Shown one piece after another: positions 5,445-53,700 of a stretch of DNA of 64,000 nt (within the stretch, counting starts at the first letter, position 1; each line of letters begins with the position of its first letter). The stretch is from Brachypterus glaber (lineage: Eukaryota; Arthropoda; Insecta; Coleoptera; Kateretidae). A program made the translations under genes and the position numbers. The notes under the pieces are model-generated. The model saw only the letters and a program-made list of their open reading frames with translations. It did not search any database and had not been told where the DNA came from. The stretch is from positions 39,729,816-39,793,815 of the forward strand of contig OY294044.1 of NCBI GenBank assembly GCA_958510825.1, written 5' to 3'.

Positions 5445-5989
5445 TTTATTTTAAATAAACCGCCGAAGGCCACAGAAAAAACTATAATTTTATAAATAAA
5501 AAAAATATATTTTTCAAGATTATCTTGAAAATAAAATACCTTAATATACCACTGCTTAACTTGTGAAATAATTATTTGGACCTTTTGTCACTTGTGCAAA
5601 ATAATGTCAAACTATTTCGTAAAAAGAAAATAAAAATAAATATTATTTTTTAATATCTACGCCACTGGCCAAAAGATAAAATTGTAATAGATTTAAATTT
5701 TATCTATTACTTAAAAAACTAAGAAGAGAAATTAGCCTGAATATTACCGAAAATTTGCACAAATAGATATGTACGCCACTGTCAGGTGGCAGAATATACA
5801 GGCAAAAAATCCTAATACTCTTTAGAAAAGAAGTAAAATTAATGAAAAAATAATAGAAAATCGAAAGTGCGAAATCTACTACTATATGCACGACACTGTA
5901 AATGGACGCGGGTTTTATCTCTTAGAAAAAATTAATGTGAAAAAAAAATAAAGTAATCTTGACCACTAATTTTGAATAATTGAGTAAAT

Positions 5990-19954: not shown

Positions 19955-19980
19955 AAAAGCACATTTTCCTAGATTAATTT

Positions 19981-26155: not shown

Positions 26156-26649
26156 CCACTAAAATTTCAAATTAAAAAATTTGGAGGTCTCACCCCTTAA
26201 ATTTGTTTGGACTTTTAATGCTACTATCTATTCTAGTATCAATATAAAAAAATCATCACTTATTTTGTTATCAGCCTTGGCTCAAAACAATGCTAAAGTT
26301 CAAAAACATTGTGTTGATACAGGGTGTATAGCTTTGTTGTTAAAAATCATTTCTTTAGATTCTAATGAGTTGGTGAAGTCTAGTACTATAACAGCTCTAG
26401 GTTCTGTTTTAAGGGGCTATCCAGCCGGTCAATTACGGTTTATTGAAAACGGTGGTATATCTGTATTTTCTAAATTATTTGATACTAGTTTTATAAAACT
26501 TCATGTTAGGAATAAAAAAGTTATAGGGGCGAGCCACATTTAAAAAACACCCGGTATAATACTATGTGACCCACTAAAATTTCAAATTAAAAAATTTGGA
26601 GGTCTCACCCCTTAAATTTGTTTGGACTTTTAATGCCACTATCTATTCT
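26092..26649 (+). repeat. SIL1 exon fragment copied between two 143-bp direct repeats
   Basis: 26235-26508 is a base-for-base copy of 274 bp from the SIL1 exon (27513-27786). It is flanked by 26092-26234 and 26507-26649, which are copies of each other with two differences seen. The left junction shares ATTCT with the exon and the right shares a short TTA/TAGG overlap. The copy covers the first armadillo-like repeats but lacks usable splice context and both ends of the exon. Not a gene by itself. Confidence 0.88.
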
Positions 26650-27030
26650 CCCCCACTGCTTAGTTGTGTCACAACATTCATTTTTTAAAATATTTTTTCC
26701 CTAGTTTCTATATTCTACCTATGAATTTAAAGTTTTCATAATCTAAGTTTGGTATTTTTTAACAATTATTGATTCCCCAATCCAAATTTGTCCAAAGAAT
26801 ATTTTTATCTCCCAGGATTTTAGAACAGAAGAGGGCTAAAATTTTGTATTTTTTTTTACTTTATTTTCTCATAAACTTGAGGTAATAGAAACATGCTGAG
26901 GTTAGATTTGGTCTCAGCGAGCCAAAATTAGTTTAAAAACATATGATATCAAAAAGCGTTTTGCCTAGTATAATTATAAATAATTATAATTATTATAATA
27001 TAAGCATTTAAACTTAAATATTTTTTACAG

Positions 27031-28172
27031 GTCAGAAAATTCCACAAGGACTTCATGTTAGAATGAATTTTGAAACTGGAGTTACAGAAGCCAAGCTATT
27101 GGATGATAATAAGCCAGATAAAAATAAAGCACTCACACCATTAGCTGATAAACTAAAAGATATGGAAACTAAACCTATTAGTTATGACGGGCTCAAAAAA
27201 GCTCTAAAAGATATCAAGGATTCGAGATTTGAACCTGATGTTAAAGAAAATGTAAAGAATAAATTTAAATCTATGGAACAAATTAAGAAGGAATTGGGTG
27301 ATATTAATTTATCGCCAAAATTAGATGCTGTACTAATGAAAGAGTTGTTTGAAGAATATGAGAAATATGTGGAAAAAAACGTGTATCCAGATGCCAAACT
27401 TTTGAAAATCATAAAAGACTTTGATTATCTTGCTCATCAGTACGACAATGCGGTAGAATTCGTGAGCCAAGATGGCTTTAACAGGTTTATATATAAAAAT
27501 TTAAATAATTCTAGTATCAATATAAAAAAATCATCACTTATTTTGTTATCAGCCTTGGCTCAAAACAATGCTAAAGTTCAAAAACATTGTGTTGATACAG
27601 GGTGTATAGCTTTGTTGTTAAAAATCATTTCTTTAGATTCTAATGAGTTGGTGAAGTCTAGTACTATAACAGCTCTAGGTTCTGTTTTAAGGGGCTATCC
27701 AGCCGGTCAATTACGGTTTATTGAAAACGGTGGTATATCTGTATTTTCTAAATTATTTGATACTAGTTTTATAAAACTTCATGTTAAAATATCAAACTTA
27801 GTTATTGATTTAATAACAGAACATAAAAATAATATATTAGATTCGAGTCAGAAAGTAGTAAGTCTCTATAAAAATATTAATTTTGAAAATTTAATGATTG
27901 AGAATAATTATTGCGCCAATTTAAACAAGTTGCTTTATAATTTGTTTGAAATTGAAGACTTAAATGGCATTGAAAATTGTCTACGTGGTATTCAAATTAT
28001 TTTACCCAAATGCCAAGATCAAATTAATGGTTCCTTACTTTTGGAAATTGAAGTATATTTCCAAAAATTAGTTGTCAGTGAAAAAGATTTACCTGAAGAA
28101 TCAAATAGAATTGAATATTATAACGAAATTATTCAGTTAATAAACAGTGTTTTAAGTATGAAACAACAATAA
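27031..28172 (+). CDS. Sil1: SIL1-like nucleotide exchange factor for BiP, last coding exon
   Basis: SIL1 releases ADP from the ER Hsp70 BiP (GRP78). The exon follows an acceptor TATTTTTTACAG (ends 27030) in phase 1 and reads QKIPQGLHVRMNFETGVTEAK, a signature of SIL1 proteins. From the internal ATG at 27063 there are 369 further codons. They hold an acidic and lysine-rich helical part (to about residue 130), then armadillo-like helices (about 150-330) with LLSALAQNNAKVQKHCVD and LRFIENGGISVFSKLF, and a helical C-terminus. It ends SMKQQ. No KDEL-like retention signal is visible, unlike many homologues. The upstream exon(s) with the signal peptide were not found to the left. It could be confused with cytosolic HspBP1, but the GLHVRMN block favours SIL1. 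Confidence 0.87.
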
Positions 28173-29768: not shown

Positions 29769-32700
29769 GTAATTATATCATTAAATTATTAAGAGTCTTA
29801 TTTTTTTTGTTTTTGGATTTAGTTTATCATAATAATTATTAATAATAGTAGTAATAATAATAGCAATAATATAAAAAATAAAAATGGACTACAATTGTAG
29901 CCCGTACGATCAAACTTGTAACAAAAATTAGCGCGACTAACGAAGGGTTAACCAGACTAATTTTTTATTCCGTATTACTGAAAAAGAGTTTGATAGTGAA
30001 AAGATCCCTTAACTCCAATTTTTGTTAAAAAAAAAACTGCAAAAAGGAAGACGGGCTAGCTCGAGATCTTCAAGGCATCTAAACTATTAAATTTTTGGGA
30101 TCCTAATGTTACTTTATAAAGGGACCCTGCCATTATCTATATTTTTGATCCTGCCACTCGGTCTAAAATTGACTAATAAAAAAAACACACCCCTTTTAAC
30201 ACATCAAAATTTCTCAGTGGTCTTCTTTTATTTCATAAAAAAACCCTGTTCCCATCATGTGACTCTCATGGAAATGTTTGATCGATGATCACTTTAGTCA
30301 GATTTTTATAAACTCAATTTAAAAAATCCGTGAAGATATGTAATGCCACGTATTCCATTATATATTATTCACAGTAAATAGTATGCAGCATTGGGAGGCA
30401 TAGCGTAGTGGCTAGCGCGTATGTATAGCAAGTCTACTATCGTGAGTTCGATTCTCACTGGCGCCGATTTGCCTTTTTCAGTTAATTAATAATTGAAATT
30501 TGGCGAAGGCGATAAGTGAAACGGACAATCCCTAGAAACTGGTTCGAAAGTCAGTATAAGCCGGTGGTTCCCTCTACTACTAGCCCACACAAGTCCTGGA
30601 CTTAGGGGATGCTTAATTAAGTAGAATAGTACGAGGTTAAACAAATAAACAAAAACAATAAATTTCCCAAAAAAAAAAATAATTTTCAAAAAAAAAATAA
30701 AAAAATTACATTTTTTTAAAAAGATCCTTTTTAAAAAACAAAAAATTATTAAAAAACAATTTTTTTTTCAAAAGACGTTTTTTTATTTTTCAATTTTTTT
30801 TATTGAAATTTCTTTTTTCGAAAAACGAAAAAAGTTTTTTTTTAAAAATATAAAAACTCAAAACATTAGTCAATTTTTTGTTTATTTTTTTTTGTTTGTA
30901 GAATTGATCCTTATAATAAAAGTAATTTTTCCTGGAAAAAATACGTTAATCGGAATTTTCTTTCGGCATTTTTCGATTTTTTAAAGAGTTTAACCCCCCA
31001 TAACTTTTTTGAGGGTAAAACTTTCAAAAATAATAGGGATCTTCCACTCATAGAACTTTTTTGAAAATTCGAAACTACCGTATACTATTCTAGCGCTGGC
31101 GCTGTGAATAAAATAATTACTCTGGGTAGCACGGCCAACTCAAAGTTTTCGGCAGTCAAAATGCTGCATTTTTGCTTACTTTTTGGTATGGATAAAATGA
31201 AAAAAATATATGCTAAAATTCCTTGCTACTCGGTAAAAAAATTAAAATACACATAAAAAACTCAAGAAATCTCACGAATTTTTATATGGAAATTCCAAAA
31301 ATCGCATTATCTGATATCTTATATATAATATAATACAGTGCAACCTCAGTAATCCGGATCCTCGGTAAACCGGATTCTTCGATATTCCGGACAAGCATTT
31401 GGCCGGATTATCGAAGTATCCTTTTCTAGACAAGGATCAAGCAAAAAAATACAAATTACTTAACAAAATAATATAAAATGTAATAAGTATGCTTCTGTTT
31501 TACATACTTTTTAGTTTTTGTACTATTTTCTAGTTGTTTTGTATTAAATGTTTTACTTTTCAATACAAAAACTGTCCCGCTTCAGTAATCCGGATTATTT
31601 GCTAATCCGGATCACCGGATTGTCGAGGTTGCACTGTATTATCAGCACATCTGGATTTCCAGATATACCACATGAAATCTGATAAAAGTTCATGGGATAT
31701 CAAAGTATTTACGATGTAAAATTTTTATAGGGTTTTTAGTAAAAACTTTTCGGGATCGTTATAACGACTATGGTCTTTTCTTTTGAGACAGAAAACGTCA
31801 AAGCAAAATTCAGTGACTACAGATCATTACTTCCACGAACGCTACGCTTTTTATTAAACTTTTCGGCTTACCAAAAAGATGTACATTTTTTAAGGGGCAC
31901 GTTAACCTTGCAAAAAAGATAGTCTGTCGGTATGTATATGCTAATTTTGAACTACAAAAATTGGATAACGCTTTAAGCTTAAAGCTTTAAATTTTGCCGT
32001 AAAAAGTTAAAATTTTACCCAATAAATTTTCTTTTCTTTGTTTTTGATTTTTTTTGTAGTTTTTTATAGAATTTCAATATACAATGTACATGTATAAAAT
32101 TTTAATTTTCTTTGCTGTAAAAAGGTAGGAGGAGAAATAATTGTTTTCTTTGTAGCAGTAGGCATTTACTGCAAATGTTTGACTGTTATTATCAGTAGAC
32201 TATAGACTAAACTATCTAGAATTGAACCAATGAACTTCTACAATCTATAACACTAGTTTACAAATTTATACTTTTTTGCACGAAGATTATCACATTTTCT
32301 TGTGTCATTTTGTCTCCTCGTGAGAAAAAAGTTACAGGGAGCGCCACTTAAAAGAAAGTAGAAAATTTCCAATGCAATATAAATTAAGTTAACTTAAACC
32401 TTTACCAGAAAAAAAAACTACTTGTAACTTCGAGGAGTATACCTATATAATGCGAAATATTATATATCTTAATGGGCTGTTTTTTGTTTTTTTTGTTTTT
32501 AAGTAAGTAGTCTCAGACAGCTAAAGCGGTTTGCTGTTCATGAGTAGGAACCGTGGACGACTTTTCTTTTTCATCAATTTTTTTTTTTTGGGGAAGGGGC
32601 ATGAAATCTGTTTCAGGGCAGCAAAGGAGGATGTCAGGAAACGGAGATTTTTGGCCTCGCTACGGAACTTTTCTGACCCTAATTAAATCATTGTTTGGGT

Positions 32701-35700
32701 CCTTAGGACAGAAAATAACCATCATTTTTCCCAGAAGTGAAGGGAACATTCTTAGAATGCACAGTGAACTTGGAAAACCAAAAGTCTGTCAAAAATGTGA
32801 ATTTTTGCATACGACTATTTTTGGTACCGCTGATTACGAATACAATAGTAAAAATTGTGAAAAAAACCGCGTCTTTAGGGTGTTCATATTTTGTTGTTTT
32901 CGTCCGATTTTGATAAAATTTGGTATGCAGGTTTCTTCTGATGACTTATGTGTGGATCTGTACCCATAAGTTCAAAATTCAAAATGGCGTAGAAAATATG
33001 GCAAAAGAAGTTTATAAACATATTAAGGTGCCAAAATACCCGACAAAAAAAAACTAAACTAAACGTTTTTATTGCCTTTGTCACTCGCGTATTCAAAACG
33101 AATTTTTTCTTGCATCAGTCTTTAAAACCGGTCTAGTCGTTTCGGCTTTAGGTGGGAACAAACAAACAAACCAAAAATATAGTCAAAACTCTTGTTTCGC
33201 GTTGCTATGGTCAAATGAAATATCTGAATTGCTGCCCATGTGCGGTAAGTAAACAATAGCTACAACAATTAAAATGGATAAGATAATGTTTATCTGACTA
33301 TTTAGCTAGTAACTTCGGCATTGGGTAGGTTGGGGGGTGGTAAATTGAGAGTCCAAACAAAGGTCCATTTTTAATTATAAGCACGTGTCAGCAATTCGGC
33401 GATTTAATCCGGCCATATCAACGCGCGAAACGAGAATTTTGTTTATATTTTTATTTGTTTGTTTATTCTTACCTAAAGCCTAAACTACTAGACCGATTTT
33501 AACGATTGAGGCAGCAAAAGATTTGTCTTAATTACGTGAGTTAAACAGATAATATGAATATTTAGTTTTATTTTTTTGTCGGGGTTTTGGCACCTCGGTA
33601 TATTTAATAAACTTCTTTCTCCATATTTCTACCCTATTTTGAATTTTAAACTTACGGGTACTGATCCGACCATATTTCTACCCTATTTTGAATTTTAAAC
33701 TTACGGGTACGGATCCGATCATACGTCATCACAAAAAACCTGCTTACCAAATTTTATCAAAATCGGACTAAAACAAAAAAAAATATCATCCTAATGACGC
33801 GGGATTTGTTTTTTAACAATATTTTTTATTATATTCATAATCAGCAGTATCAAAAATAGTCGTATGCAAAAATTCACATTTTTAACCGACTTTTGGTTTT
33901 CCAAGTTCACTGTGCATTCTAACAATGTTCCCTTCAGTTCTGGGAAAAATTATCGTTATTTTCTGTCTTCTAAGGACCCAAACAATGATTTAATAAGGGT
34001 CAGAAAAGTTCCGCAGCGAGGCCAAAAATCGCAGCTTCCTAATATCCTCCTTTTCAACCTCAATTTTTTTCCCTCGATTTATTTAAATATAAAGGGTAAA
34101 AATTCGTAAGACACTGTTAAAAAGAACTTCGACGCAAAACCCTTGTAAACTACTGTAATTTAACGATCATATTACAAATATAATTTTACAAACATATTTA
34201 TAATTATTTTTTTCCAGTAGTTATTAATCAGTCGTTTTCTGATAACTTTTAAATGACTTTAAATATTTAAATAAAATTTTCTTGTACGTTGTATTTTGTT
34301 AATTGATAAATATTCTCCTTACAAAATATGTTTTCCACAGACTAATCAATTTTACAGAGAAATTACTATTGTCAAAAAATACTTTTTCCCAAGGGTGTAA
34401 TTTTACGGTTAGTAATTTTTTCCGTCCCTAAACAGTTCTTTTCCGTCCCTAAATACTTTTGTTTAATCGTCATTAACGACCTAGTTTAAAGTTGTGGTGT
34501 GGTGAAAATTCGTAATAATTTTCGTATGCGGCGATAGTGCTTTCTTATATTTTTGAAATTATAAAACTCTTTTAAAATTAAAATAGGCCATCATATTAAG
34601 CATCTTTCGCTTGCTGTGCTAGTGCTTTCTTACGTTTTCTTTCACGGCCAGGGGTTTAGACAGTAAAACTAAATGATGAAGAATAATTTAAATGAAAATT
34701 ATTTTTAGAAGAAAAAAAACTCGAAATTACATTTTTTATAAAAAACTAACCAAGCTTGGGACAATGGGAGTAATTTTTTTAACACAATTTTAGATTTTTT
34801 TTTATATTTTTTTTTGTCATATAATTAAATATAGGGAATCTATTCTTTTGTAAGCAGCATTATTTTATTTGAAACTTATTTTTTTTAGCTTTGGGAGTAG
34901 TAAACTGTCAGGGCGAATTTAGCCCATCAAGTTTATCCTCTCTTAGAGAATATGCATCTCATCAAAGATTGGAAAAAGCAAAGGAAAAGATAGAATCTAT
35001 CTGTCCAGGTTATGGAGATAGATTTGAAGTAAGTACCTAGGGACTGTTCAACAATTATGTCACACGGCTAGCCTTAAACAAAGTTAAATGGAAAGTCAAA
35101 CCACCCCGGATCTTTTGACTTTAGGTTGTTTTTGGGACATTTCCAAATAGTTTTTGACAAAAATTAAAATCGCTCACGAAGCCGTTTAAAATAAAGTCAT
35201 TCCTCTTCTTCTTTAAGTTTTTTCTGACATCACTATACGGAGTTTTTTCTATGACACCCTATAGCATAGGTACTACCCATGATACTCAATATAACCGCGC
35301 ATACATTGTTAATTTCCAAAAAATAAATAAAATTATGTTTGGAAATGTCCCAAAAACAACCTAAAATCAAAAAATCCAGGGTGTTTTGACTTTCCATTTA
35401 ACTTTGTTTAAGGCTAGCCGTGGTCACTGCTCGAGCGCGCTCTAGGGGAGGGGACAAAAAGTGACACAGTATCAGGTAAAGAGTGACGTCACTTTTTTTA
35501 ACATTTCTTACAATTTATTGATTTTGCAAATTTGACCATTAAAAGTTATTTTTAAATAATTTAAAAATAAATGTTGCATTACTATGTGACGTTTTACAAA
35601 AAGATTATACAATTAATAAACAAATATCGGGACTAGGACTTTAAATAAAAACACTAAGTTTTATGCACTAGCGACGTTTCGCTATGTACACGTAGACGTT

Positions 35701-38700
35701 TCTATAGTTTTCTTTTATTGTTCGTAATTGTTTATTTAAATAATATTTATGTTAAATGTAGTGTTTTAAGTATGATAAGCTTGATAAAGTCTTAATTAAA
35801 GGCGAAACGTCGCTAGCGCATAAAACTTTGTGTTTTTATTTAAAGTCCTAGTCCCGATATTTGTTTATTAATAATACAAATAATATTAACAAGATAAAAG
35901 CCTAAGATGTTGGGTATTAATTAATAGCATTATTATATTTACATTTGATTTTGTGTATCACCTAAGCAGTGCTTGTGTGTGATTACACAATCTTAGGATT
36001 TTTTCGACAAAGATATTTATGTATTAAAAAAAAAATTAAAAAACTGTTATACACTGATACTAAACAAAAAAAAACTATTTGTAATAACAATAATAAATAA
36101 AATTTAATATTTATTTAACAGACAGACTTGTTAAAAAAAATATGTTGTCAAGAAATGTATCATATATCATCTATATTAAATGTATTAAATGTATGTTATA
36201 TCGATACTGTGAAATAAATGTTTTTTTATTGGGATATTATTTTTCAAAAATCTTCTTGATATAAACTTCTATCTTAAACTTTTTAAACTTATTTGAAGAA
36301 CTTAGGACTTATTTCTTTAGATAACAGGTTATGTAATTTTGGTGCAAAATAAAACGCAGTCCTTTGCGTAAAGTTATTTTTAAAAAGAGGAATAGGAAAT
36401 ATATTTTTTCGGTAGATCTGCTGTTATACTAGGAGGAGACCGCTTTAGTTTTCTTTTTGTTTACCCAAAATATGCACTGGATAACATAAATGAAACGAAC
36501 TTTCGGCAAAACCGATTCATTATACTGGGTGTATCAAGGTAGACAGATCAGACGATTTGTGGCGATATTAACAAAGATATCAAAATGAAATTTTTACCAG
36601 CTAATATAGACTTAATTATCTTCAATTGACTCTTGTCTTTGTTTACCCAAAATATGCACTGGATAACATAAATGAAACGAACTTTCGGCAAAACCGATTC
36701 ATTATACTGGGTGTATCAAGGTAGACAGATCAGACGATTTGTGGCGATATTAACAAAGATATCAAAATGAAATTTTTACCAGCTAATATAGACTTAATTA
36801 TCTTCAATTGACTCCAAAGAAAAGTTTTCTGCTCTCTTTTGTTTTTGAGCTAGAGCTCCACACAAGCATTTTTTTGCCCATAGCAACATTTTTAAATGCC
36901 AAAATTTAAAAGAATTATAATTTTTCTTTTTTTTACAGTACTTTTTTTTTTAAAAAACATTAACTTTGTTGTAAATTTTGGAGTTTAAAAAACCTTGATA
37001 AATGGAATTTACATTATGGAACGACCCCACCAACATAAAAAATAGGATGCCTTGAAAAAACTTTAAATGATGACATTAAATGCCAAATCTGATTAGACTA
37101 TCTTGCGGCGGCTTCAGCTGACGCCGCTAGATAGATAGTTGGATAGAAACATTAAACATGAGGCAATTTAGTCAATTTTATTATATTCTAACTAACTAGG
37201 TACATTACAGTCAATTAAAAAATAAAAACTAGGTAATCTATGTAATAAAGCAACTATTTTTGATCAATTTATTTTTGTAATATTTAAAAAGTTACAACAC
37301 GCTCGTAGTTTTTTGAGGGCACAATACAAAAGTAGTGTGTTCTTGCTTTTTGGTTTTCTTATAAAAGGGATGGCTCTATTTTACTAAATTTTAATAACTG
37401 ATAAGTAGATAGGTAAATTATAATAAAAATTAAGTGACACCAAATCACTGTTTTACTTTTATCTTGTCTTGTTTCGATAAAACACTACAAATCACAGTAT
37501 TTAATTTTCACTTCAGTTTTCATTAGTCGTAGTATAACATTCACATTGTAAGGACAGAAATTTTTAATTTTAAACAAAATTATAAAAATATTAATTTATT
37601 ATTCCATCAATCTATTTTCTATTAGAAAATAGATTGATGGAATAATAAATTCACATTGTGCTGCATTTAACTTTATTTTTTCAGGCCATTTTAATAAAAC
37701 CACAAACTTTGAAAACATCAAAAACTATCCATATTTTCTTTTAATTTATAAATTGTTTTAAAAATGAGAAACCAATTAACTTTTATTATAACTTCTTCAT
37801 AAGGTTTTACAAAAATCTTGCTTTTTAAATGTACCATTTTAAATTATGTTACATAATATATGTATGATACATCTAAATCAAAGATAACACAGCCACACAA
37901 AATTTTTCTTTTTTTAAATATACAGAGTCTTGACCAGGAAAATCCTAATATCTCCTAAACCAGAAGTAAAAATGTAAAAAAATAAAAAAGAAAATATTCA
38001 TTAAAACTGCGGCAATAAGTGGCGTACCATGCAAGTCCTAGAAGATGGGGTAAAAAACATAGTTGTACATTATTTGTTGCTGTTAACACGAAAAACAAAA
38101 TTAATCATTCTTAAAACAAAAGTAGAGAATGTTTAAGCTTAAAAAAAAAGAATCAATCAAATCTATTAATTAGTTATCGAAATATTTGAATTTAAAAAAT
38201 GTAAATTTTTTAGGTGTCCGGAATTTAATGTGCGGCAGTGTACATACTTTTCATTTTAATTTCAAAGCATTCTACTTTTCCCGATAGCGGGGTCATTTCA
38301 AAATACAAATCCCATTTTTTAAGTTTTTTTTTTATTTAAGAATTTACTTGAAAAATGTTTTCAGTAAAGAAAACTTATATAGATAAAGAAAAATAGTAAT
38401 TCTTTCTTCAATATTTGTTGGCATTTAAAAATTCTGTTATGTGCAAAAAAACGCTTGTGTGGAACTCTAGCTCAAAAACAAAAAAGAGTAGAGAACTTTT
38501 GTTTGGAGCCAGTTGAAGATAATTAAGTCTATATTAACTGGTAAAAATTTCATTTTAATATCTTTGTTAAGAACGCCACAAATCGTCTAATTTGTATACC
38601 GTGATACACCGAGTATAACATAATATGTTAGTTAATGTTATAGAAAAACTTCAAAACAAGATTCTCAAAATCATATTTAAAAATCAATAATATTATTATA

Positions 38701-41700
38701 TTATTCCATCAATCTATTTTCTAATCATCGTACAGAGTGATATTGGTAGACTGACAGTTTCGGGCTGCTGGCCCTCTTCAGTACCAAGAGTCAACTAATT
38801 TTACGTCTAACCACCCGTTAGTGGTACTATGTGCTTGAGACACACAAGTCTTCAACTTGCTACCATTCAAAGTCTCCAGATAAGGAGAGGTATGAGTAGT
38901 TGTCTACATCTAGAAATAGATGGCGCACAAGTCTACATCAATCTAATGGCTATATTCCTTTTGCGAGTAAAGTCTAAAAACGTTTTCTTAATCAGCGTGC
39001 AGAGTTGACTCTTGGTACTGAAGAGGGCCAGCAACCCGAAACTGTCAGTCTACCAATATCACTCTGTACGATGATTAGAAAATAGATTGATGGAATAATA
39101 AATTAATATTTTTATAATTTTGTTTAAAATTAAAAATTTCTGTCCTTACTAATTTTACGTCTAACCACCCGTTAGTGGTACTATGTGCTTGAGACACACA
39201 AGTCTTCAACTTGCTACCATTCAAAGTCTCCAGATAAGGAGAGGTATGAGTAGTTGTCTACATCTAGAAATAGATGGCGCACAAGTCTACATCAATCTAA
39301 TGGCTATATTCCTTTTGCGAGTAAAGTCTAAAAACGTTTTCTTAATCAGCGTGCAGAGTTGACTCTTGGTACTGAAGAGGGCCAGCAGCCCGAAACTGTC
39401 AGTCTACCAATATCACTCTGTACGATGATTAGAAAATAGATTGATGGAATAATAAATTAATATTTTTATAATTTTGTTTAAAATTAAAAATTTCTGTCCT
39501 TACTAATTTTACGTCTAACCACCCGTTAGTGGTACTATGTGCTTGAGACACACAAGTCTTCAACTTGCTACCATTCAAAGTCTCCAGATAAGGAGAGGTA
39601 TCAGTAGTTGTCTACATCTAGAAATAGATGGCGCACAAGTCTACATCAATCTAATGGCTATATTCCTTTTGCGAGTAAAGTCTAAAAACGTTTTCTTAAT
39701 CAGCGTGCAGAGTTGACTCTTGGTACTGAAGAGGGCCAGCAGCCCGAAACTGTCAGTCTACCAATATCACTCTGTACGATGATTAGAAAATAGATTGATG
39801 GAATAATAAATTAATATTTTTATAATTTTGTTTAAAATTAAAAATTTCTGTCCTTACTAATTTTACGTCTAACCACCCGTTAGTGGTACTATGTGCTTGA
39901 GACACACAAGTCTTCAACTTGCTACCATTCAAAGTCTCCAGATAAGGAGAGGTATCAGTAGTTGTCTACATCTAGAAATAGATGGCGCACAAGTCTACAT
40001 CAATCTAATGGCTATATTCCTTTTGCGAGTAAAGTCTAAAAACGTTTTCTTAATCAGCGTGCAGAGTTGACTCTTGGTACTGAAGAGGGCCAGCAGCCCG
40101 AAACTGTCAGTCTACCAATATCACTCTGTACGATGATTAGAAAATAGATTGATGGAATAATAAATTAATATTTTTATAATTTTGTTTAAAATTAAAAATT
40201 TCTGTCCTTACCAATAATATTATTATTAAAATCAATAATATTATTATTGATTTTTTAAATATGATTTTTCGAATCTTGTTTTGAAGTTTTTCTATAGAGT
40301 TCATGGATTTATCGTAACAACCCCCACGTGCAACTAGTCCATATCTTAGGATTTCACCAAACTATAATAGGATTTTTTTTACTTAGAAAGTCTGTTATTT
40401 GATAAAAGTTATTATTTTGTAATGAATGAATGAAGGAAAAAAATGAATTTCTGAAGGAAAAGTCGGATTAGCGTATCTTTTTTAAGAAAAATTACTTTTA
40501 TAATAAGGATTAATCCTACTGCTTTTAAAAAAATACTCTAAAAATTATTATTGAGGCGGTACTTGACTAGAAGATTTTGTTTAAGATATTAAAGACCCCG
40601 ATAGCGCAACTTTTTTGTAAATCGGTCATTCTACGAAAAGGTGGCGGTAAGGTGGTAGGTAAATTATCATTTTAGGAAGGGCAGCCTAGTGCAATTTTAT
40701 ATAGCATTTTAGATTCCTAATTATCTAAAGACACAGATCCCCTGAGCCTACTGTAGGTTTAAAAAAGTTGTTGAAAAAATCTGATGGCGGATTCTGTTAG
40801 TGGGACCTCGATACAATATAAACCCGTTTTTAGTAAAATCCCATCCGCTTCTTTTTGGAAGATAATGTTAACATTTCTTCAGCAGCCTCAGCAGTACAGC
40901 CAAAACAATGTTGAAATATTTTCGCGCATGGATCCTAAATGTACTTTTAAGGAGGATTTCGATTCCGTTTCTAGAACAGCTCTATCTATTACCGATTTCT
41001 AGAAAATAATTATTAAAGTAGACACTACTTTTTTTGGGGGTTAAATTGACACGTATATATGTTTTTAAAGAGAGGTCGTAGAATGTTATGCCTGGGACAG
41101 AATGAAACCAAAAAACTTCAATTTTCAGTTTATATACAAAGCATATTCAGAATTCTCCTCTGAAATATTTATGAACATATTTTTAATAGGTTAAAATTTG
41201 ATAAAAAATATTATTTAATATATTTGTCATGTAGTGTTGAAACTTTTCTTTAAATTCGACATTTTTGTCATTTGTCTCCATATAACTAGCAACGCTAATA
41301 CTTGTTTACTTATTTTATAACTCATTTTTATAGTTCTAGCAGAATACGTTTCATGTCAAGTGGCTATCAAGTGTTTGAAATATAATATATTAAATTTTTT
41401 TATTTTCATATTGTAGAGTATTTTGGTAAGTATTTTATTCTTGATAGCTAAAGCACGTTATTAATAAACTTTTTACAGGTTTGTAAAAACATGTCTGCTC
41501 TTGATCATGAGGAAAACAGAAAAAAAGTTTGTGCTCCATGTGGCAAAAAAATTATTTTTGGTAAAAAAGGGGTTAACTATTTCAAAATTACGCAAAATTT
41601 AGATAATTTATTAAAATTACATGTAAATAGAGATTTCGACTTATTAGACAAAAGATACCCAACATCCATTTGTGGAACATGTCAAGTGGTGTTAAGAGAA

Positions 41701-44700
41701 TACAATCGTGGTATTACACTTCGATCATTACCTGTAATGCCCGATTATAACACTTTGATAAAAAGAAGTGACATAATAATGAAGTCGACCTGTTGTTGTT
41801 TTATATGTATACTTCGACGGAATACATGCACTTTAAAACAGACAATCAAAACAGAAGATAAGAATTTAAGTGAAGAAATATGCAAGAAGTGTTTTAACAC
41901 AATTGGTAAGGGCAAAAGGCATTCTTGCTCTATCATAAATGCTCAAAAAAATGCAAGCAAAATTGTCGAAAGTCTTCCAGAAAAACAACAGGAAAAAATT
42001 GCAAGTAAAATTATTAAGAGTAATTCAGATGCACATCAAAACAGAAATTCAACGCTAAGTTTATCAACAGGAGGTACTCCTTTAAAAGTAATTCTTCATC
42101 CAAGTATCGAAAAAAAAACAAAATTTTCAGTTGAAAGCCTTAATAAATTTAAAACTGTAACGGGATCTTCACTAAAGCAGATGGAAACATTAACAAATTT
42201 TATACGTAGTTTTGCTGGAAAAAAATCTATACCTTCGTATTACCGACAACAGGCTTCCGAAAATTCAAAATCTTTGCAAAACATATACAAGGAAGGCTCA
42301 TTTCTTTTTGATATAGAAGAAAACAAAAAAGCAGAAAGGCCAATTGTATATGCAGATGCGTCTGAACTTTTAGATGCGGTAATACATCAAAGGCAAGACA
42401 TAGGGAACAATTATTCTATTAAAATCATGGCAGATGGGGGTCAAGGGTTTTTCAAAATTTGTATGTCGATATTTCCTGAAGACATTTTGGATGGGTTGGG
42501 TGATATGGAAGAACAAGAAAAAAAAAGAAGTACGTATTCTGCTGGCGGCAGCATTGAAAAGGATTTTAAATTAAGTGGCGTAAACAAATTAATTATGGTG
42601 TGTATTGTACCTCAAATAAAAGAGACATATGATAATATGAAACTTTTATTTGATGTTACAAACATCAATAATATACCGTTTCGGTTTGTATCCGACTTTA
42701 AACTTCTGCTAATTATTAACGGACAGCAAACCGCCAGTTCCACGTACCCAAGTCCGTATTGCTTTATTTCTTTAAATGACTTAAAATTAAACAAATATAT
42801 AGAGCGAGAAAATGATATTGCATGTGATACTTTAAATACCAGTGAAGAATGTTTAAGGCTTAAAACATACGGAGATATCAGAGAGGCGTATAAAAAATAT
42901 TGTTTATTAGGAAATAACAAAAAGCTCGCAAAAGAATGTAACAGTACAGTTAATCTTCCACTTTTTCACGAAGAAGATGATGTGTATGTTATAGAAAAGT
43001 GCATAGTTCCGGAGCTGCACATTCTTCAGGGCTTTGTTAATCATTTGTTTTGGAATGGCTTGGTTCCCATTGTCGGGCGCGAAAGAGCTCTAAACTGGCC
43101 CAAAAAATTAAATCTTATCCCAAAAAATTATCATGGTGATTGTTTCGAAGGCAATGCATGTAGAAAACTGACAAAAGAAGCTGACAAAATAAATGATGAA
43201 GAAGTCTTGGGGGATGTACCGTTTCTTAGATTATTACCTTTAGTTAACGTCTTTAAATCATTAAATAAAGTCATTAAAGATTGCTTTTCAACAAGAAAAG
43301 TAGGGGAAAATTTGGACATTTAATGAATTAAAAAAAATGTTTTTGGCCATTGAAATGGGCGAGACTTTAAAAATTCACGTGGCTCTTCACCACCTTAAAC
43401 ATTCTCTACATTTTTTTCCAAACAATGGATTGGGTATTTGGTCGGAACAGTCTGGAGAGTCAATCCATCGGGAATTTCTAAAATTTTGGTCTAGATATAT
43501 AATTAACATTCTTGAGGATAAAAGCTATGCTAATCATCTAAAACTGGCAGTAACTGAATTTTCCTCAGAGCATTTATAAATACTTGTTAATTCAAACAAT
43601 TTGTTTTTTAAAAAGTTATCTATCTATCTGTCGTTAAAATCAAATGGACAGGAAACAGTGTATAGCACTATTTCATCAGCACTGTCTATCCTGTATGTTG
43701 TTAATATTGAAATAAAAACGTTAGATGTGGTCACTATTATCTCATCATTTGTTCCCAAAAGGCAAATCGCCACAATTTAGGGTGTATAGTGCTATACACT
43801 AGTGTGCACTATTTCTTATCCATTTGATTTTAACGACAGATAAGAGATAACTTTTTAATATATAGAGTAATTCCAGCTTAGATAACTTTTTAATATATAG
43901 AGTAATTCCAGCGTTGCTTACGTTACATTTTTACTCATATTTTAACTTTTAAATGTATAAATTTATTAATTATATTAAAACACATAATATTTAAATACAA
44001 TATTAATTTTCAGTAAATAACAAAGTAACAAAACATATATTTATAATTAGTATAATAAGTTTAATTTGTGAGAAATTTAAAATTTAATGTAGTGTTACGT
44101 TACATTTTGTGACAGAGATTTTGACTGAGTATCTTTAAATTTCTGTTCTATTCCAGAATATAAAATCTTTTTAAAACTAGAGGTGCATTTAAAAATGTTT
44201 TAGAAGTTAGGCTAGCATGTTTTTAACCTTTAACAATGGCTGAATTATGTATTAAAACATGAAATGTCTGTTGCTTACGTTACAAGGGAAAACGTTGCTT
44301 ACGTTACATTAAAAGTGCCTATATTTGTTTGCATTATAAACTGACTATCTTGACAATGTATTGCAATACCAAGAGTGTACTTCGACTGGTACACTTTCAG
44401 TTTTTGTCCTAGGTATTGCTTTCCCATTTTAATGTTTTCAAATGTTGAAAAAGCCTTGTTTTCGTTCAAAAGCTTTAAAAATTTTTTTTTTCGTATTTTT
44501 TCGTATTTTTTCGTTTTATGAAGTTTTATATCGATATAAATCAAAAAAAAATAAAATGGCGGTCGATGAGTGGGTCGGATGATCGTTTGGTCCATTGGTC
44601 GGTCGATCGGTTGGTCAATCGGTCGGTCGATTTATTTTTGTCGTTCGTTCTGCCCGAGAAATCTAGTGGGCATGATAACTTATGAACACCTTAAGCTAGC

Positions 44701-47700
44701 CAATAATAATCTGCATTTTATTTAAATCCAGTAATGTTTTTTGTTCGTAAGTTAATTAAAATATAAGGTTTTAGACAGTTCTGACAATATTTGAGATAAG
44801 ATTATGAAATAAAAAAATTTATTCCATAACCAGGATTTAAACCGGATACCTTTCGAATACCAGTTAAATGCTCTTCCAACTAAGTTACCATGGAAGTCAA
44901 AAATTTTATAACTAGTCGGAAAGCCTTTTTACAAATAATATTATCAATTTCTTAGTCGAAATTATACAGAAGTTAATCTATCTATATGATAATACTGCGC
45001 ATAATCTAAAATTACTTTTATCGAGGGGTGTCTCACCGACAAAGTTTTGTATAGAGGAAATGCGCCTAATTTCGGATGGTTTCCAAATTTCGGATAGTAG
45101 TGTATTTAAGATACTGTCTGCAAAGGTAAACAGAAACCTACTTTTATGTGAAGCCAAAAGCCAAACTAAATCTGTCCTGTAATATGATAACGGTAGAGCT
45201 TCTCCCCTTTAAATGGCAGCACAAATCGTTTATATTGCAAATGGCAGTTTTGTGCTCAGTTGCATTATTATGCTTGTTTATTTTATAAATAATCGTTATA
45301 AAAGTTCGTGATTCTGTCTTGGGTAAGTTATGATGTTAGTTAAGTTGATCCACTATTCATAATTAAGCAATTTGAAAACGTAAACATTCTACAAATTTCT
45401 AATCTAAAAAGCTGAAAGTTGCCTAATTTCGGATAGATCATTTTTGTGCATTTGATTCACAATTTCGGATATCCGCAAGGTAATTATTATTCAGGATAAC
45501 CAACCATTAATTATTATTTTTATAAGGATACAACAAACTAAGATAAACAATTTTGAAAAAACGAAAATTACCTAAGATACTAAGATATTCGAAATTGGGA
45601 ATCTAAAATTATAGTTCCTATAGTATTTCGTAGAAAATCGCTTAATGATTAAATTACGTCTTAAATGTGAAGGAATAACAAGAAACATAAGCAATGGGAT
45701 CCAGATCCACTCTTGAAAAAATTTTTTCGGATATGTCCGAAATTAGGAGCCCTTTTTCAAATGCACAAAAATGCGCTGATTTTTTTTAACCGTGTTTTTT
45801 GGAAAAAATAAACTGTAATAAAATTGCTTTTATAATTAATCATGGTTCGCTATAATAAGTTGTATCTGGTTATATAAAAAAAATATCAAAAAGTAATACC
45901 GAGTATTAAATATTGAATACATTGTAAATGGTATCCGAAATTAGGCGACTTTCCTCTATGTATTGTCAAAAATGCCAAATATTGTCAGTAATGTCCTACA
46001 CGAGGAACAGTTATTGTAAAATTTACATAAAAAATTTGAAGTTTGGTTACTTATGTTTATTTTTGTAAAAATTCGCATTTTTTAAATCATTACAAAAATA
46101 TCGCAAACTGAAAACTAAGCCGTCGTAACTAATTTTTTTTCAATTTTGAGATTTTGTGCTAAAACGACATAAAGTTATGTTTTTATCGTTTTAGCACAAA
46201 ATCACAAAATAGAAAACAAAATTAGTTGTGACCATAGATAAGATTCGTTGTGACGGTTTAGTTTTCATTGTGCGATATGTTTTTTATTGTAAGTTTTGTT
46301 GTTAAAAATCTTGTAAAACATAAAAATATACAGGTGTTTAGTATAAACTGCTCGTTTCATTGTACTATTCAGGGACGATTCAAGGAGGTGTGGGTGTGTC
46401 ACACCCCCTTACGAGAAGTGGTAGCCGGCAAAATTAGTTAGCAGTCGGCAAAATCAGTCAGTAGAGGGCAATATTATATATAATATATATATTATATATA
46501 ATAGTTGTGTGGTGTGAAATTTTTTCTTAGCAGAAACTGGAAACTGCTCAGGAAAAAAGCTTTTTTTTCAGGCAATTACCTTTTTTTTAGTCGTCAAATT
46601 TTTTGGATAGTAGTAGTAGTAGTAGTAGTAGTAGAAGTACTAGTAGTTCTCTTTTTTTAGTATACATTACATACTTTAAAAGATCACTTTACTGTCTTAG
46701 CTTACAAGCTTATAAATAAAAACACAGTACTCAGTACTAGTCAGAATTTACACTATACACTAAAAAGAATGACAGTTTTTTATGACAATTCTATATAACA
46801 CTGCGTGACAAATAAATTAAATAATATTTTTTATCAAATTTTAACCTATTAAAAATATGTTCATAAATATTTCAGAGGAGAATTCTGAATATGCTTTGTA
46901 TATAAACTGAAAATTGAAGTTTTTTGGTTTCATTCTGTACCAGGCATAACATTCTACGACCTCTCTTTAAAAACATATATACGTGTCAGTTTAACCCCCA
47001 AAAAAAGTAGTGTCTACTTTAATAATTATTTTCTAGAAATCGGTAACAGATAGAGCTGCTCTAGAAACGGAATCGAAATCCTCGTTAAAAGTACATTTAG
47101 GATCCATGCGCGAAAATATGTGAATATTGTTTTGGCTGTACTGCTGAGGCTGCTGAAGAACTGTTAACATTATCTTCCAAAAAGAAGCGGATGGGATTTT
47201 ACTAAAAACGGGTTTATATTGTATCGAGGTCCCACTAACAGAATCCACCATCAGATTTTTTCAACACCTTTTTTAAACCTACAGTAGGCTCAGGGGATCT
47301 GTGAAGAATACGTAACAGTGCTCAGCGGCGCACTTTTTGCGTTATTTTTTTTTAGTTTTTTTGGCTAGGGAGGCACAAATGGGAAAAACATATTTTTTTA
47401 CAAAAATTTGGAAATTGTTTTTAAGGTTGCTAAAATAGAATCTGATAATAAAAAAAATTCAACCTCCGTTGGGGTAAGGGGGTAAATATTGTTAAATGTT
47501 TTCAATATTGTCGTCAAAATTAGTATACAGGGGTTTTTAGGGTCGAAGAAATTGAATCTGATAATAAAAATTTTCTAACTACTCCGGGGATGGGGGGTGA
47601 TTATTTTTAAATGATCTCAATATTTTCGTGAAAATTGGTATATGGGGGTTTTTTAAGTAGCTAAAACTGAACCTGATAATAAAAAAAATTCTAAATCCAC

Positions 47701-50700
47701 TCCGGAAGGGCGGGGAGTAATTTTCTTAAAAATGGGTATATTGGGGATTTTAGGTCGCTAAATATGAATCTTGGAATAATTTTTTTCTAAATCTAAAAAT
47801 ATGACCTTGAACTACATTTTGACAGGTTGTAGATTGGTGTTGTTGCAGGGACCACCTATACCGAATTTCATGTTTCTAGATCGGGGAGTTTAAAAGTTAA
47901 CAAAATATGACTTTAAACTGATATTTTGACAGGTGCGTACATTGGTCTTGTATTAGAGACCACCAATACCAAATTACATGCTTCTAGGTCTAGGTGTTTA
48001 AAAGTTAGCAAAATATGACCTTGAACTGTCATTTTGACAGTTGCGTAGATTGGTCTTGTTATAGGGACCACCTATGCCAAATTTCATGTTTCCAGGTCAA
48101 AGCGTTTAAAAGTTAACAAAATTTGACCTTGAACTGTCATTTCGACAGGTACATAGATTGATCTTGTTTCAAGGACCATCTGTACCAAATTTCATGTTTT
48201 AATTTAATTATTAAGTACACCAAACAAAAAAAAAATGAAAATTTACTTCGTTAGAAAGTCTACACGGTTTTTACGGTTATTTTAGATTTTCTACCAGAAA
48301 TCTTTTTCATGTCAATTTGTAATTTTAAGGTTAGAATTCCATAATATATGCCTAATTGAAAATTAGACAATTAATTAATTATTAAATAAAATCAACAAGT
48401 TATAACTAATAATAATAATTATTAGCGTTAGAAAGTCTACAAAGAATAAATCCACGCTCTTAAGGTTTTTACTTTTGTGAAAATATATAAAAAAAACTCA
48501 CCTTTTAAAGAAACACTCTTCACAAGCCCGACACAATAGACGACTATTGCTGCCAACTAAGACCTTAAACTAACGAAAATGTTTCCAGACAACTCTAAAA
48601 CCAGCGTTAAAAAGTCTACATTGGAAAAATATGAAACCTTCTTATTTTTTTTTATTTGTTTTTTTTTGCTATGGGAATGATATTTCAGAGTCCATAGTAT
48701 TTACGTATTACAACTATTTTATTTAAAACTTTATATTTATATTTTTAATTTACTCTTAAAGTAGCAAAAAAAAATCCGGGACATGGCATTTTTACTGACT
48801 TTTTTACATAAAAAAATCATAATATCCTCAAAAAGACACGTACTTTAACCAAATCTATAGCGCTAAACTGACAAAACATTAGCGTTTCCAATAATATTAA
48901 AAAAAAATTGTATTTCCAGACAGCCTAGTGGCCACAGTTGGTAGACTGACCGAAATATGAACTATTTTATTATTTTTTTGGGAGCAATATTTTTGAATTT
49001 CACTAATTTTAGGAAGCTTTGAAAAAAGTAGGTGAATGTGAATCGGAGAGGGAAAGGGAAGACGAAACCTTATGCGCTTCCATGAAAGACCTCACCTGCA
49101 TCAAACCAGCTATCAAATTAATGGAAGAGTGTCTTCCTCAACGTTCTCGTGAAATTCCTTCGTTAATCTTACAAAGTATTCAAGACGTTACACAATACGC
49201 TTGTGCTACCAATGGAGAACATATTTTTGGTAAGTATACAAAACGGAGAAATCAAATATCAAGGCTGACGTGATTCTTTTTAATGAAACACAGCGCATTG
49301 GACGGGCCGTCTCCCCACTACAACCACGTCAGCCTGGATCGTTTTATCTTTGTTTTCTCTGTATTGTATAATTTCAAACAAATGGTATTTACTGACCCAT
49401 CCAACCAATAGTTCTAATTACACAGGCCTACATTTTAAAACTCTGAATAATTCTTGCATTTTTTAGTAATATGTATATTTACTGAAAAAACAACCCTGAT
49501 TTCAGAATTTTACCAAAACCTTTAAAGTAGATTTTTCTAAAAAAGGATAAATTTGGGCTTTGCCCTTTGTTTCCCTGATCCCTTTAATTTTCTTTTATAA
49601 TAATCAGGGACCGGACTTTTTATAAACAAGCCTTTCTTACTTAATACTAGCATTCATTTGCCGAGGGCTCGCAAAAGTTAGAATTTTATAAAGACTATTT
49701 TTAAATTAAATCGGCACTTTAAACGATATTTTACTAACCAGGCCATCGCGATGCATCTTGTCGAAGCTATTATTACATAGTGGCTTATCTACAGATGTGT
49801 ATAAACATGGTGTTCCAGTTAGTAAAATATTATTTAAAGTTTAAAGTATACCTATGATTATAATAATACTATAATATTATTACTAATAATATATTTTTAA
49901 AAATTGTAAATTTTGCGAGCTGCTGGTAAATGAAAAAGTCCGGCCTCTAATAATAACGCCGGCCCACAAAAAAAAGTATATTGTCCTGGGGTAGAGACAT
50001 ATCTATTCCTATAGATTTTGAGGCGCTGACTTCAAATCTGGTGTCAAATCAAAATTCTACCGGCTGGTTTTTTGACTATACTCAAAAAATGGGCGAGAAT
50101 ACTCAAAAATCTCATATTTTAAATAATTTCTCGCACATTTGTTAAAGAATGTGACTTGTTTCCGACTGTTCATGAATTTTGAGTGGCTGAAGAAGAATCG
50201 AATATCCATACAGCACCGTAATAAACTCATTTTTTTCTGGGTTCGAAAATGAGTAAAATTACTCAAAATTCACTTTTTTTTTTTAATTTTTATTATCATA
50301 TTTCAAATAAATACGTGTGCAGAAGTAGATATCAAGCTACTCTTATGTATTTTGAGCTGCTGAGATCGAATCCAACGTCAAACAATACAATAACCAGATT
50401 GAGTCTGGAGTAAAAACGCACAAAAATTTTACATACAGCCTGTTCCAGAACTCGCGTACAGAAATTTGAGGATATATTAAAAACCCTCTGGAAAATATGA
50501 AAAAAATTAAAAAAAAATCCATTTTCAATACTAAAAGGTAATTTAACATCAGTATATACAGCCTGTTTCAGAACTCGCTTACAGAAATTTGAGGGTATAT
50601 TAAAAATCCTCTGGAAAATATGAAAAAAATGTAAAAAAAATCTTCGTTCAATTCAAAAATAAGAACGCTTTAAGTGGACCAATGCTGTTGCTGATGTTAA

Positions 50701-53700
50701 ATTACCTTTAAAAGTTGAATTTGTAGTAATGGAAGCAAATTTAATTATTGCAGGTACATATTCTGTAGGTTGACATGGTAATTAATGTGACATAAATATT
50801 TATTAATGTCAAAAAACCACCGCCGGATGGAGTGACCCTATAAAAATAGAATATTTGATAGCCTCTGTCGGTTTTGTCGAAATATAATAACTTAAAAAGA
50901 TTCTAAAGTTGAAAGTCTCAAACAATGCACGCGTCAACAATTAAAATGCAAACATAGATACTAATAAGTAGGGAAAAACTAATTTGTAGGTAATTTAACA
51001 TCAGCAACAGGATTGGGTCTGTCAAGTTAGCCCCCCCCAGTTAAAACTTAGGGTCGAAAAATACATAGGTAGTTTGCACACAACTTGCACAACCTTGCAC
51101 AACCAAAAAAAAAAGCTTGCGCACTAACCATTGGTTAATTATATGAAAAAAACCGTGGGGGGGCTAACTTGACCTTAGCCCCTTCCCCAGTAAAAAAGTT
51201 AAAAATTTTCACAACAATCTAATAGTAAATAGCTTGCACAAGCTTGCACAACCAAAATAAAAGCTTGCGCACCCTTAACAAGAGCGGTGAGGAGTAAATA
51301 ATGTTTACCGACAGCACCCCCCCAGAACTAAAATTGACCGAAAAATGTTGTAGTATGTTAAAAAAAAGCTTGCACAACCTTGCACAACCAAAATAAAAGC
51401 TTGCGCACCCTTAACAAGAGCGGTAACGGGTAAATAATGTTTACCGTCAGCCCCCCCCAGAACGAAAATTGACCGAAAAATGTTGTAGTATATATAAAAA
51501 AAAGCTTGCACAACAAGAGCGGTAACGGGTAAATAATGTTTACCGTCAGCCCCCCCCCCCAGAAAGAAAAATGTTGTAGTATATTAAAAAAAGCTTGCAC
51601 AGCCCCTCACAAACAAAGTAAAAGCTTGCGCACTCTTAACAAGAGCGATGAGGTGTAAATAATGTTTACCTTCAGCCCCGCGCAGAACTATTATTTAATA
51701 AAAAAGTTTAAAAAAATTATTACTATCTAATTACAAGTCCCTTGCACAACCAAAATAAAAGCATGCGCACCCTTAACAAGAGCGGTGGGGGTAAATAGTG
51801 TTTACCGTCAGCACCCCCCCCCTCCCCAGAACTAAAATTGACCAAAAAATATTGTGGTATATTAAAACAAAGCTTGCGCAAACTTGCACAACCAAAATAA
51901 AAGCTTGCGCACCCTTAACAAGAGCGGTGAGTGGTAAATAATGTTTACCGTCGCCCCCCCCCCCAGAACTAAATTTGACCAAAAAATGTAATATATTAAA
52001 AAAAAACTTGCACAACCTTGCACAATCAAAATAAAAGCTTGGGCACCCTTAACAAGAGCAATAAGGTGTAAATAATGTTTACCTTCAGCCCCGCGCAGAA
52101 CTATTATTTAATAAAAAAGTTAAAATTTTTCATTACTATTTAATAGTAAGTCTCTTGCACAGCCAAAATAAAACCATGCGCACCCTTAACAAGAGCGGTG
52201 AGCGGTAAATAGTGTTTAGCTAAAATTGACCAAAAAATATTTTGGTATGTTAAAACAAAGCTTGCGCAACCTTGCACAACCAAAATAAAACTTGCGCACC
52301 CTTAACAAAAGCGGTGAAGGTAAATAGAACTATAGTGCTTACCGTCACATTTTTTATGATTTTTTTTTGCCTTAGGGTGAGCACTATACCCCGGTCTCCC
52401 CTATGGCTTTTTAAGGCTGCTGAAATTGAATCTGATAATTTTTTTAACTCCACCCCCGCGGGGGTGAGCGGATAAATATTTTTAAATATTTTCAATATTT
52501 TCGTCAAAATTAGTATATAGGGGTTTTTGGGGTCGACGAATATGAATCTAATATTATTTTCAAATTTCACCCCCTGAGTGGGAGGGTAGTTTTTGTAAAA
52601 ATTGTTATATTGGGGTTTTTGAGGTTTCTGAAAGTGAATCTGATAATGAAAAAATTCTAACTGCACCCCCTGAGGGGCGGGGGTAGTTTTCTTGAAAATT
52701 GATATATGTTTTTGAGGTCGCTTAAGCAGAATCTTAAAATATTTTTTTTCTAAATACACCCCCTGAGGGGCGGGGGGTAGTTATCGTAAAGTTGGTATAT
52801 TGGGGTTTTCAAGGTTGCTAAAATTGAATCTGATAATAAAAAATCCATTTCACGCGCGGAAGTGAAAAATGGGAAAGCTCTTTTACTGGGCAGTGTATTT
52901 TTTATCTTCAACAACAAAATAAATAAAATGAAAATTTTATTAGAAAGAAGTTTTTAATAAAAAACTTTTAAGTCACTAAAAAAAATAAATTAAGTACCTA
53001 CCCACTGCCGCCAACAAATTATTGATTTACGTAAAAAAAGTATTGTAGGCTACTTCAAAAGTGCATTTGCTTTTATTTTATACTATAACATTTTTTGGTC
53101 AATTTTAGTTCTGAGGGGGCTTGTTAAGGGTGCGCAAGGTTTTATTTTGGTTGTGCAAGGTTGTGCAAGCTTTTTTTTTAATATACTACAACATTTTTTT
53201 GTCAATTTTAGTTCTGGGGGGCTGACCGTAAACATTATTTACTCCCCACTGCTCTTGTTCAGGGTGCGCAAGCTTTTATTTTGGTTCTTCAAAGATGTGC
53301 AAGCTTTTTTTTAATATACTACAACATTGTTTGGTCAATTTTAGTTCTGGGGGGGCTGACGGTAAACATTATTTACTCCCCACCGCTCTTGTTAAGGGTG
53401 CTCAAGCTTTTTATTTGGTTGTGCAAGCTTTTTTTTAATATACTGCAATAGTTTTTAGACAAATTTAGTTCTGGGGGGGGGGTGATGGTAAACATTATTT
53501 ACCCCTCACCGCTCTTGTTAAGGGTGCGCAAGCTTTTATTTTGGTTGTGCAAGGTTGTGCAAGCTTTTTTTAATATACTACAGTACTATTACATTTTTTG
53601 GTCAATTTTGTTCTGGGGGTGGCTGACGGCAAACATTATTTACCCGTTACCACTCTTGTTAAGGGTGCGCATGCTTTTATTTTGGATGTGCAAGCTTTTT

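Follow-up and report, generated by a model that had tools for sequence, protein, structure and literature searches.

The window analyzed in this study, a 64-kb stretch of contig OY294044.1 (assembly GCA_958510825.1; forward-strand positions 39,729,816 to 39,793,815) from the beetle Brachypterus glaber, contains a tandem array of four 354-bp units with a hammerhead ribozyme core in each unit, an inverted partial unit on its left side, and a target duplication on both flanks. A second, dispersed insertion of the same family lies close by, and the two insertions have both ends in common, an arrangement similar to one regarded as a peculiarity of Penelope-like elements. Judged from these sequence features, the array is probably a non-autonomous animal retrozyme, with a type I hammerhead per unit, that is mobilized by a Penelope-like reverse transcriptase. 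The retrozyme itself is real, recent-looking, and new as a member of the animal retrozymes, and its end anatomy makes the Penelope link directly testable.

Array anatomy and target site

Tandem Repeats Finder (TRF) reported a single array with a period of 354 in the window (38794-40215; 4.0 copies, 99% matches). The whole element (38700-40211, plus strand; 1512 bp) is composed of an inverted partial unit followed by four direct units. With unit position 1 defined as the first base after the hammerhead cut (GTC/T), the inverted partial unit (38700-38795, minus strand; 96 bp) corresponds to unit 308-354 and 1-49 with 0 mismatches; the hammerhead core (minus strand, 38781) and the inner stem I are present in it, and the 5' outer stem I is missing. 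The direct part (38796-40211) measures 1416 bp, exactly 4 x 354 bp, with each plus-strand copy running from unit position 100 round to 99 (38796-39149, 39150-39503, 39504-39857, and 39858-40211), such that the element terminates on its 3' side with the last base of the fourth copy, at unit position 99. A microhomology of AC is found at the head-to-head junction of the inverted and direct parts. Therefore, the four head-to-tail units and the inverted partial unit on the left, both described in an earlier note on this DNA, were confirmed. Just two columns vary among the four direct copies: the first reads G, G, C, C from unit 1 to unit 4 (38894, 39248, 39602, and 39956), and the second is an A for G in copy 1 (39034).

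The array is flanked by the target duplication CAATAATATTATTAT (38685-38699 on the left and 40212-40226 on the right), which is 15 bp in length rather than the 14 bp previously assigned to it. Excising the element, keeping one CAATAATATTATTAT, and joining the flanks restores a near-perfect 131-nt palindrome, independently supporting both element boundaries. The element is thus inserted near the tip of a palindromic repeat resembling a miniature inverted-repeat transposable element (MITE), the left arm of which (38639-38699) pairs with the right arm (40227-40296).

The unit has a GC content of 35.9% and little room for coding; its longest stop-free stretch round the circle is 65 amino acids (aa), with no match in Pfam, and no frame of at least 80 aa lies inside the element. 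Endless translation of a circle (354 = 3 x 118) was rejected on account of stops in every frame, as was a tRNA-like sequence in the unit, where neither an Rfam tRNA match nor an ARAGORN gene was found. Additionally, patterns for the unit junction and the ribozyme were scanned against viral contigs, with 0 matches each.

Hammerhead ribozymes

The units carry the motif order TTGGTA-CTGAAGA-GGGC/CAGCA/GCCC-GAAA-CTGTCAGTC/TACCAA, with the invariant core and arrangement of a type I hammerhead. The four copies (38990-39076, 39344-39430, 39698-39784, and 40052-40138, all plus strand) have predicted cuts after 39050, 39404, 39758, and 40112, respectively, in agreement with the GTC/T sites listed in the earlier note. 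Other parts of that description required adjustment. The GGGC-CAGCA-GCCC hairpin holds for three of the four units, with copy 1 having lost one stem II pair (GGGC...ACCC, a C-A mismatch caused by the A at 39034). The inner 6 bp of stem I pair as described, but the stem is longer in total, continuing beyond an internal loop (TGACTC/TATC) with 10 + 5 more pairs (CGTGCAGAGT/ACTCTGTACG and AATCA/TGATT). Stem III consists of a C-G and a U-A pair with a 3-nt loop, GUC, and reaches the described 3 bp only when the A-U pair beside the cut is counted.

The covariance-model check proposed earlier came out negative, which at face value counts against the earlier interpretation: Rfam gave no hammerhead at the gathering threshold anywhere in the window, and relaxing the cut-off to E 10 for 38600-40350 gave none either, probably because stem III has only 2 bp plus the A-U pair. 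Given the lack of an Rfam match, a type I descriptor (requiring a stem I of 6 bp, the core, 3-6 pairs in stem II, GAA, one or more pairs in stem III, and UH) was used in its place together with shuffled sequences. This descriptor, which was composed with the motif already known, gave 5 matches on both strands of the window, all inside the element (4/4 units and the inverted part), as compared to 0 matches on 200 dinucleotide shuffles. The simpler string CTGANGA...GAAA occurs 17 times in the window, 5 of them in the element, and 0 of the remaining 12 satisfy the full descriptor.

A second insertion with the same ends

A BLAST search for further copies of the 354-bp unit in the window revealed a second insertion (37550-37649, minus strand) of 100 bp that comprises inverted unit 24-52 and direct unit 26-97 and contains no ribozyme; unit bases 98-99 are common to element and target. 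Its target duplication, TTCACATTGT (37540-37549 and 37650-37659), is 8-10 bp in length since its GT may belong to the element, and the empty site is preserved in a paralogous repeat (59703-59967, minus strand) in which TTCACATTGT occurs once with no insert. Both arms of the insertion stop at unit 24-26, the outermost stem I of the hammerhead, suggesting that copying halted there. The array and this insertion are the only family insertions in the window, where the other BLAST matches of the unit are short and AT-rich. The window therefore holds one further copy with the same ends and a target duplication, as the earlier note had anticipated for the genome, and the designation of a retrozyme-like tandem hammerhead element is supported by the anatomy, the target duplication, the restored target, and this second insertion. 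By eye, the target of the second insertion (37540-37659) contains CACA-T-TGTG, which may be compared with the location of the array near the tip of the 131-nt palindrome; the family may prefer hairpin targets (n = 2 insertions).

Both insertions have direct and inverted partial terminal repeats. For the direct parts, the end positions are unit 99 (array) and 97-99 (second insertion); for the inverted parts, they are 49-50 and 52-54, respectively. In 2/2 insertions, the direct end is therefore located approximately 99 nt, and the inverted end approximately 50 nt, downstream of the predicted ribozyme cut, and the stretch between the two ends (the "tail") is 45-50 nt (n = 2). A crude estimate of the chance of such shared ends is 3/354 for agreement within 1 position and 11/354 for agreement within 5, and the clustering of ends in two insertions is at most suggestive. 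Both insertions end in CTTAC without poly(A) or a simple 3' tail, even though an AATAAA is present at unit 47; poly(A)-primed copying was rejected, there being no tail. Additionally, the copies in the array continue across intact cut sites, so its template was a circle or an uncut multimer.

Proposed mechanism

According to the proposed mechanism, transcripts of the array would probably be cut once per unit by two neighboring hammerheads acting together as a double hammerhead, whose stem III is extended and common to both, and the resulting 354-nt pieces would be closed into circles by a host ligase, as suggested by the literature. The inactive fold preferred by a single unit would protect the circle. 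A Penelope-like reverse transcriptase/endonuclease would then cleave both strands of AT-rich DNA, and copying would start inside the RNA, approximately 99 nt past the cut site when primed by one broken end and approximately 50 nt past it when primed by the other. The inverted part would thus be complementary DNA (cDNA) whose synthesis began at the nearer of the two start sites, with the second broken end as primer, and the joining of the two cDNAs head to head would yield an inverted partial unit, direct units, and a target duplication. As the earlier note proposed, 354-nt circular RNAs might arise from the host transcript; with four cut sites, at most three complete monomers could be released per array transcript.

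More broadly, there is roughly an even chance that animal retrozymes in general are copied in this manner, with Penelope-like reverse transcriptases using two fixed start sites approximately 50 and 100 nt past the cut, one per broken DNA end, and with a circle or an uncut multimer of the RNA as the template. In effect, the retrozyme would then represent the cis-acting RNA of a Penelope-like element in its smallest form (a ribozyme and two start sites), with the inverted partial unit as the second priming product.

Several observations weigh against the involvement of a Penelope-like enzyme or an active ribozyme. The tail of 45-50 nt exceeds the 30-40 quoted for Penelope-like elements, there are only two insertions, and their inverted ends agree only to within 2-5 nt. 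At both inverted ends 4/6 bases beside the start are identical between target and RNA (3/6 and 2/6 at the direct ends), such that annealing in AT-rich sequence is possible there. Neither the start of the array at unit 100, exactly the next position after its end at 99, nor the variant order G, G, C, C is predicted by reading one monomeric circle round and round; a switch from one RNA template to another, or exchange among the units at a later time, could explain both. No Penelope-type reverse transcriptase was found among the Pfam matches for 53/53 frames of at least 80 aa in the window, the reverse transcriptase matches being limited to Bel/Pao and Gypsy frames. To these are added the Rfam miss and the computed folds, the energies of which do not include tertiary contacts. 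For the monomer, the active fold (-28.1 kcal/mol) is less stable than an inactive optimum (-36.2 kcal/mol), the best computed fold of the circle is also not a hammerhead, and both two inactive monomers (-72.7) and the optimum of two linked hammerheads (-73.2) lie below the double hammerhead (-65.4). Lastly, with a complementarity of 96-97% across 111 nt, the inverted part can pair in the transcript with the ribozyme of any one unit.

A z of -4.86 was calculated for the local fold of copy 2, yet its best fold is not a hammerhead, and in the inactive monomer optimum the UCAG belonging to stem III is bound by the core CUGA. The segment ACUG-U-CAGU in stem III is complementary to itself. A double hammerhead can be built from two linked copies, in which case stem III grows to 4 + 4 pairs with a U-U in the middle, and its tandem energy is -65.4 as compared to -56.5 for two active monomers. 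Given this self-complementarity and the inactive fold favored by the monomer, a dimer of two units may be the working form of the ribozyme; this reading is based on the self-complementary stem III and on precedents rather than on the computed energies. Small hammerhead variants of Penelope elements are also said to cleave as dimers, going by the title of a 2017 study by Lunse.

Alternative explanations

The rival closest to the proposed mechanism is an internally deleted Penelope-like element, in which the units would be solo pseudo-LTRs (LTR, long terminal repeat) derived from an autonomous element that the genome also carries, and the ribozyme a by-product. Such an origin is doubtful though still a realistic prospect: the architecture and the cut-to-end distances are similar, and the explanation differs from the proposed one mainly in ancestry, so that both could hold together. 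The long, two-part stem I is unlike the minimal Penelope motifs in passages of PMC7761336, and the 65-aa unit frame without a Pfam match also argues against it. It is unlikely that the ribozyme is dead and the element a copy of a formerly active family; the Rfam miss, the inactive best fold, and the stem II mismatch of copy 1 would agree with such decay, whereas the two variable columns in four copies and the intact core in 5/5 copies point to a recent element.

Twin priming uses neighboring template segments. Mobilization by an ordinary long interspersed nuclear element (LINE), with target-primed copying from the RNA 3' end and an inverted part made by twin priming, is therefore difficult to reconcile with the second insertion, in which the direct part (26-97) overlaps the inverted one (24-52). 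Additionally, neither insertion has poly(A) or a simple 3' tail despite the AATAAA, and the 3' end falls inside the unit. A 15-bp duplication with a 5' inversion is equally LINE-like, the 15-bp duplications of Nematostella repeats are likened to those of LINEs in a passage of PMC4918200, and the 4/6 bases shared at the inverted-end starts would permit annealing; nevertheless, this route is considered quite improbable. Least probable by far is satellite DNA with an incidental hammerhead-like sequence that grew by unequal exchange or a Helitron-like DNA rolling circle. The exact unit number, the near-identical units, and the paired variants would suit local DNA amplification, and expansion after insertion is possible, but insertion is needed to account for the target duplication, the restored target, the inverted part, and the other partial copy, which is dispersed and ends at the same point.

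Genomic setting

Both insertions likely lie within an intron between exons ending at 35028 and starting at 49013, with the array in sense orientation relative to the presumed host gene. The downstream exon (49013-49229, plus strand) matches DUF1397 of Pfam at 26.0 bits, against a cut-off of 25.7, with TTTTAG directly before it and GTAAGT directly after it. The candidate upstream exon (34889-35028, plus strand) has an AG acceptor and a GTAAGT donor and ends in phase 0, matching the start of the exon at 49013. It has no significant family match, and a composite of the host-gene exons had no homolog at E 0.001 in a protein search. The intronic location given in the earlier note is thus likely, in that same-strand exons with canonical splice signals and matching phase stand on either side, although the upstream exon is without database support. 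An exon at 63931 was rejected as the next exon, as its direct join to the exon ending at 49229 gives a stop.

Within the presumed intron, a single-frame protein of 623 aa (41452-43320, plus strand) has no Pfam match and many relatives in short contigs and named insects, one of which is named as ZAD domain-containing. Among the species-named homologs (116 matches), 12/16 belong to beetles and 4/16 to wasps, and the open reading frame looks like the gene of a repeated element. A tandem duplication of a 182-bp unit with 100% matches (36456-36814) was also reported by TRF, as were arrays of a similar approximately 130-bp unit at 51227-52218 and 53120-54230, which are in opposite orientation and have C-runs or G-runs (consensus compared by eye).

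Two retrotransposons are encoded on the minus strand: a Bel/Pao element with an uninterrupted 1719-aa frame (291-5450) and a Gypsy-type element with two overlapping frames of 586 and 720 aa (17873-21741). Among the best 120 of 976 homologs of the Gypsy protein, the first three species-named ones are beetles, followed by many insects and other animals. Frames at 26163-28169 (plus strand) resemble what we take to be a SIL1-type nucleotide exchange factor, without Pfam support, and their presumed N-terminal part lies downstream of the armadillo-like part. Rfam tRNA matches at 30394-30466 (plus strand) and 44822-44894 (minus strand), one just at threshold and neither reported by ARAGORN, are possibly tRNA-derived repeats.

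Comparison with known systems

The shared ends provide a clue to the machinery that moves animal retrozymes, the repeats of which, according to passages of PMC7761336, contain no conserved motif from which that machinery could be deduced. If the pattern is true genome-wide, the question of the partner would be settled and a cis-acting RNA indicated, and the template would span the ribozyme cut site, as a circle or uncut multimer, rather than being a cut linear monomer. The end positions also constitute a sequence test applicable to any genome with retrozymes.

In the relevant passages of PMC7229834 (Cervera and de la Pena 2020), animal retrozymes are described as tandem repeats of 170-400 nt with large duplications, and Penelope-like elements are considered strong candidate machinery because both groups have type I hammerheads and tandem copies and occur together; reduction of retrozymes from Penelope-like elements is suggested in part of PMC11722881. 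The B. glaber element agrees with metazoan non-LTR retrozymes, as portrayed in these passages, in its tandem units (4 x 354 bp, the range for the group being about 150-450 bp), the type I hammerhead in each unit, a GC content below 50%, the lack of coding capacity found, and target duplications longer than 4 bp (15 and 8-10 bp). It differs from those of PMC7229834, insofar as described there, in that the ends of two insertions are readable, approximately 50 and 99 nt after the predicted cut. The titles, abstracts, and passages found contained no report of tail-type ends for retrozymes, and prior publication is possible.

The closest parallel to these ends comes from sections of PMC11167929, in which the purified protein of an anole Penelope-like element (Poseidon of Anolis) begins copying at two internal sites. 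There, the hammerhead cut is 26 bp into the open reading frame and the commonest start is at 111-118, so that by subtraction the distance from the cut downstream to that start is 85-92 nt. The interval separating one start from the other is a genomic "tail" of 30-40 bp, called unique to Penelope-like elements. The same sections report that both target strands are cut and extended at ATT-containing targets and emphasize the absence of homology between target and start. Adineta Penelope insertions, according to a passage of PMC3846280, have direct and inverted partial repeats and 8-10 bp duplications, and one of the inverted repeats can additionally bear a tail of 31 bp. Combined, these excerpts indicate that Penelope-like elements resemble the family studied here in the inverted partial terminal repeat, duplications of 8-15 bp, and AT-rich targets; a longer end on one side only and a copying start 85-100 nt after the cut may likewise be common to both. 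In contrast to the Penelope-like elements so described, no open reading frame for a reverse transcriptase/GIY-YIG endonuclease is present here (no frame of 80 aa), and stem I is long and two-part; set beside their minimal hammerhead without stem III, stem III here is reduced to two pairs plus A-U.

The weak stem III is a feature in common with amphibian retrozymes, the hammerheads of which act as dimers according to a passage of PMC7229834, and an Aedes repeat-type hammerhead is likewise proposed to act as a dimer in part of PMC3088659. As far as these excerpts describe them, the newt/axolotl satellite and Aedes hammerheads have a similarly very short stem III and self-complementary loop, and they differ in sequence and host, the version here being ACUG-U-CAGU with a central U-U. 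Plant LTR retrozymes, as outlined in sections of PMC4918200, have in common with the B. glaber element a hammerhead, a non-autonomous lifestyle, and a circular RNA model; theirs is a type III hammerhead with 4-bp duplications and LTRs, as opposed to the type I arrangement and 15-bp duplication found here.

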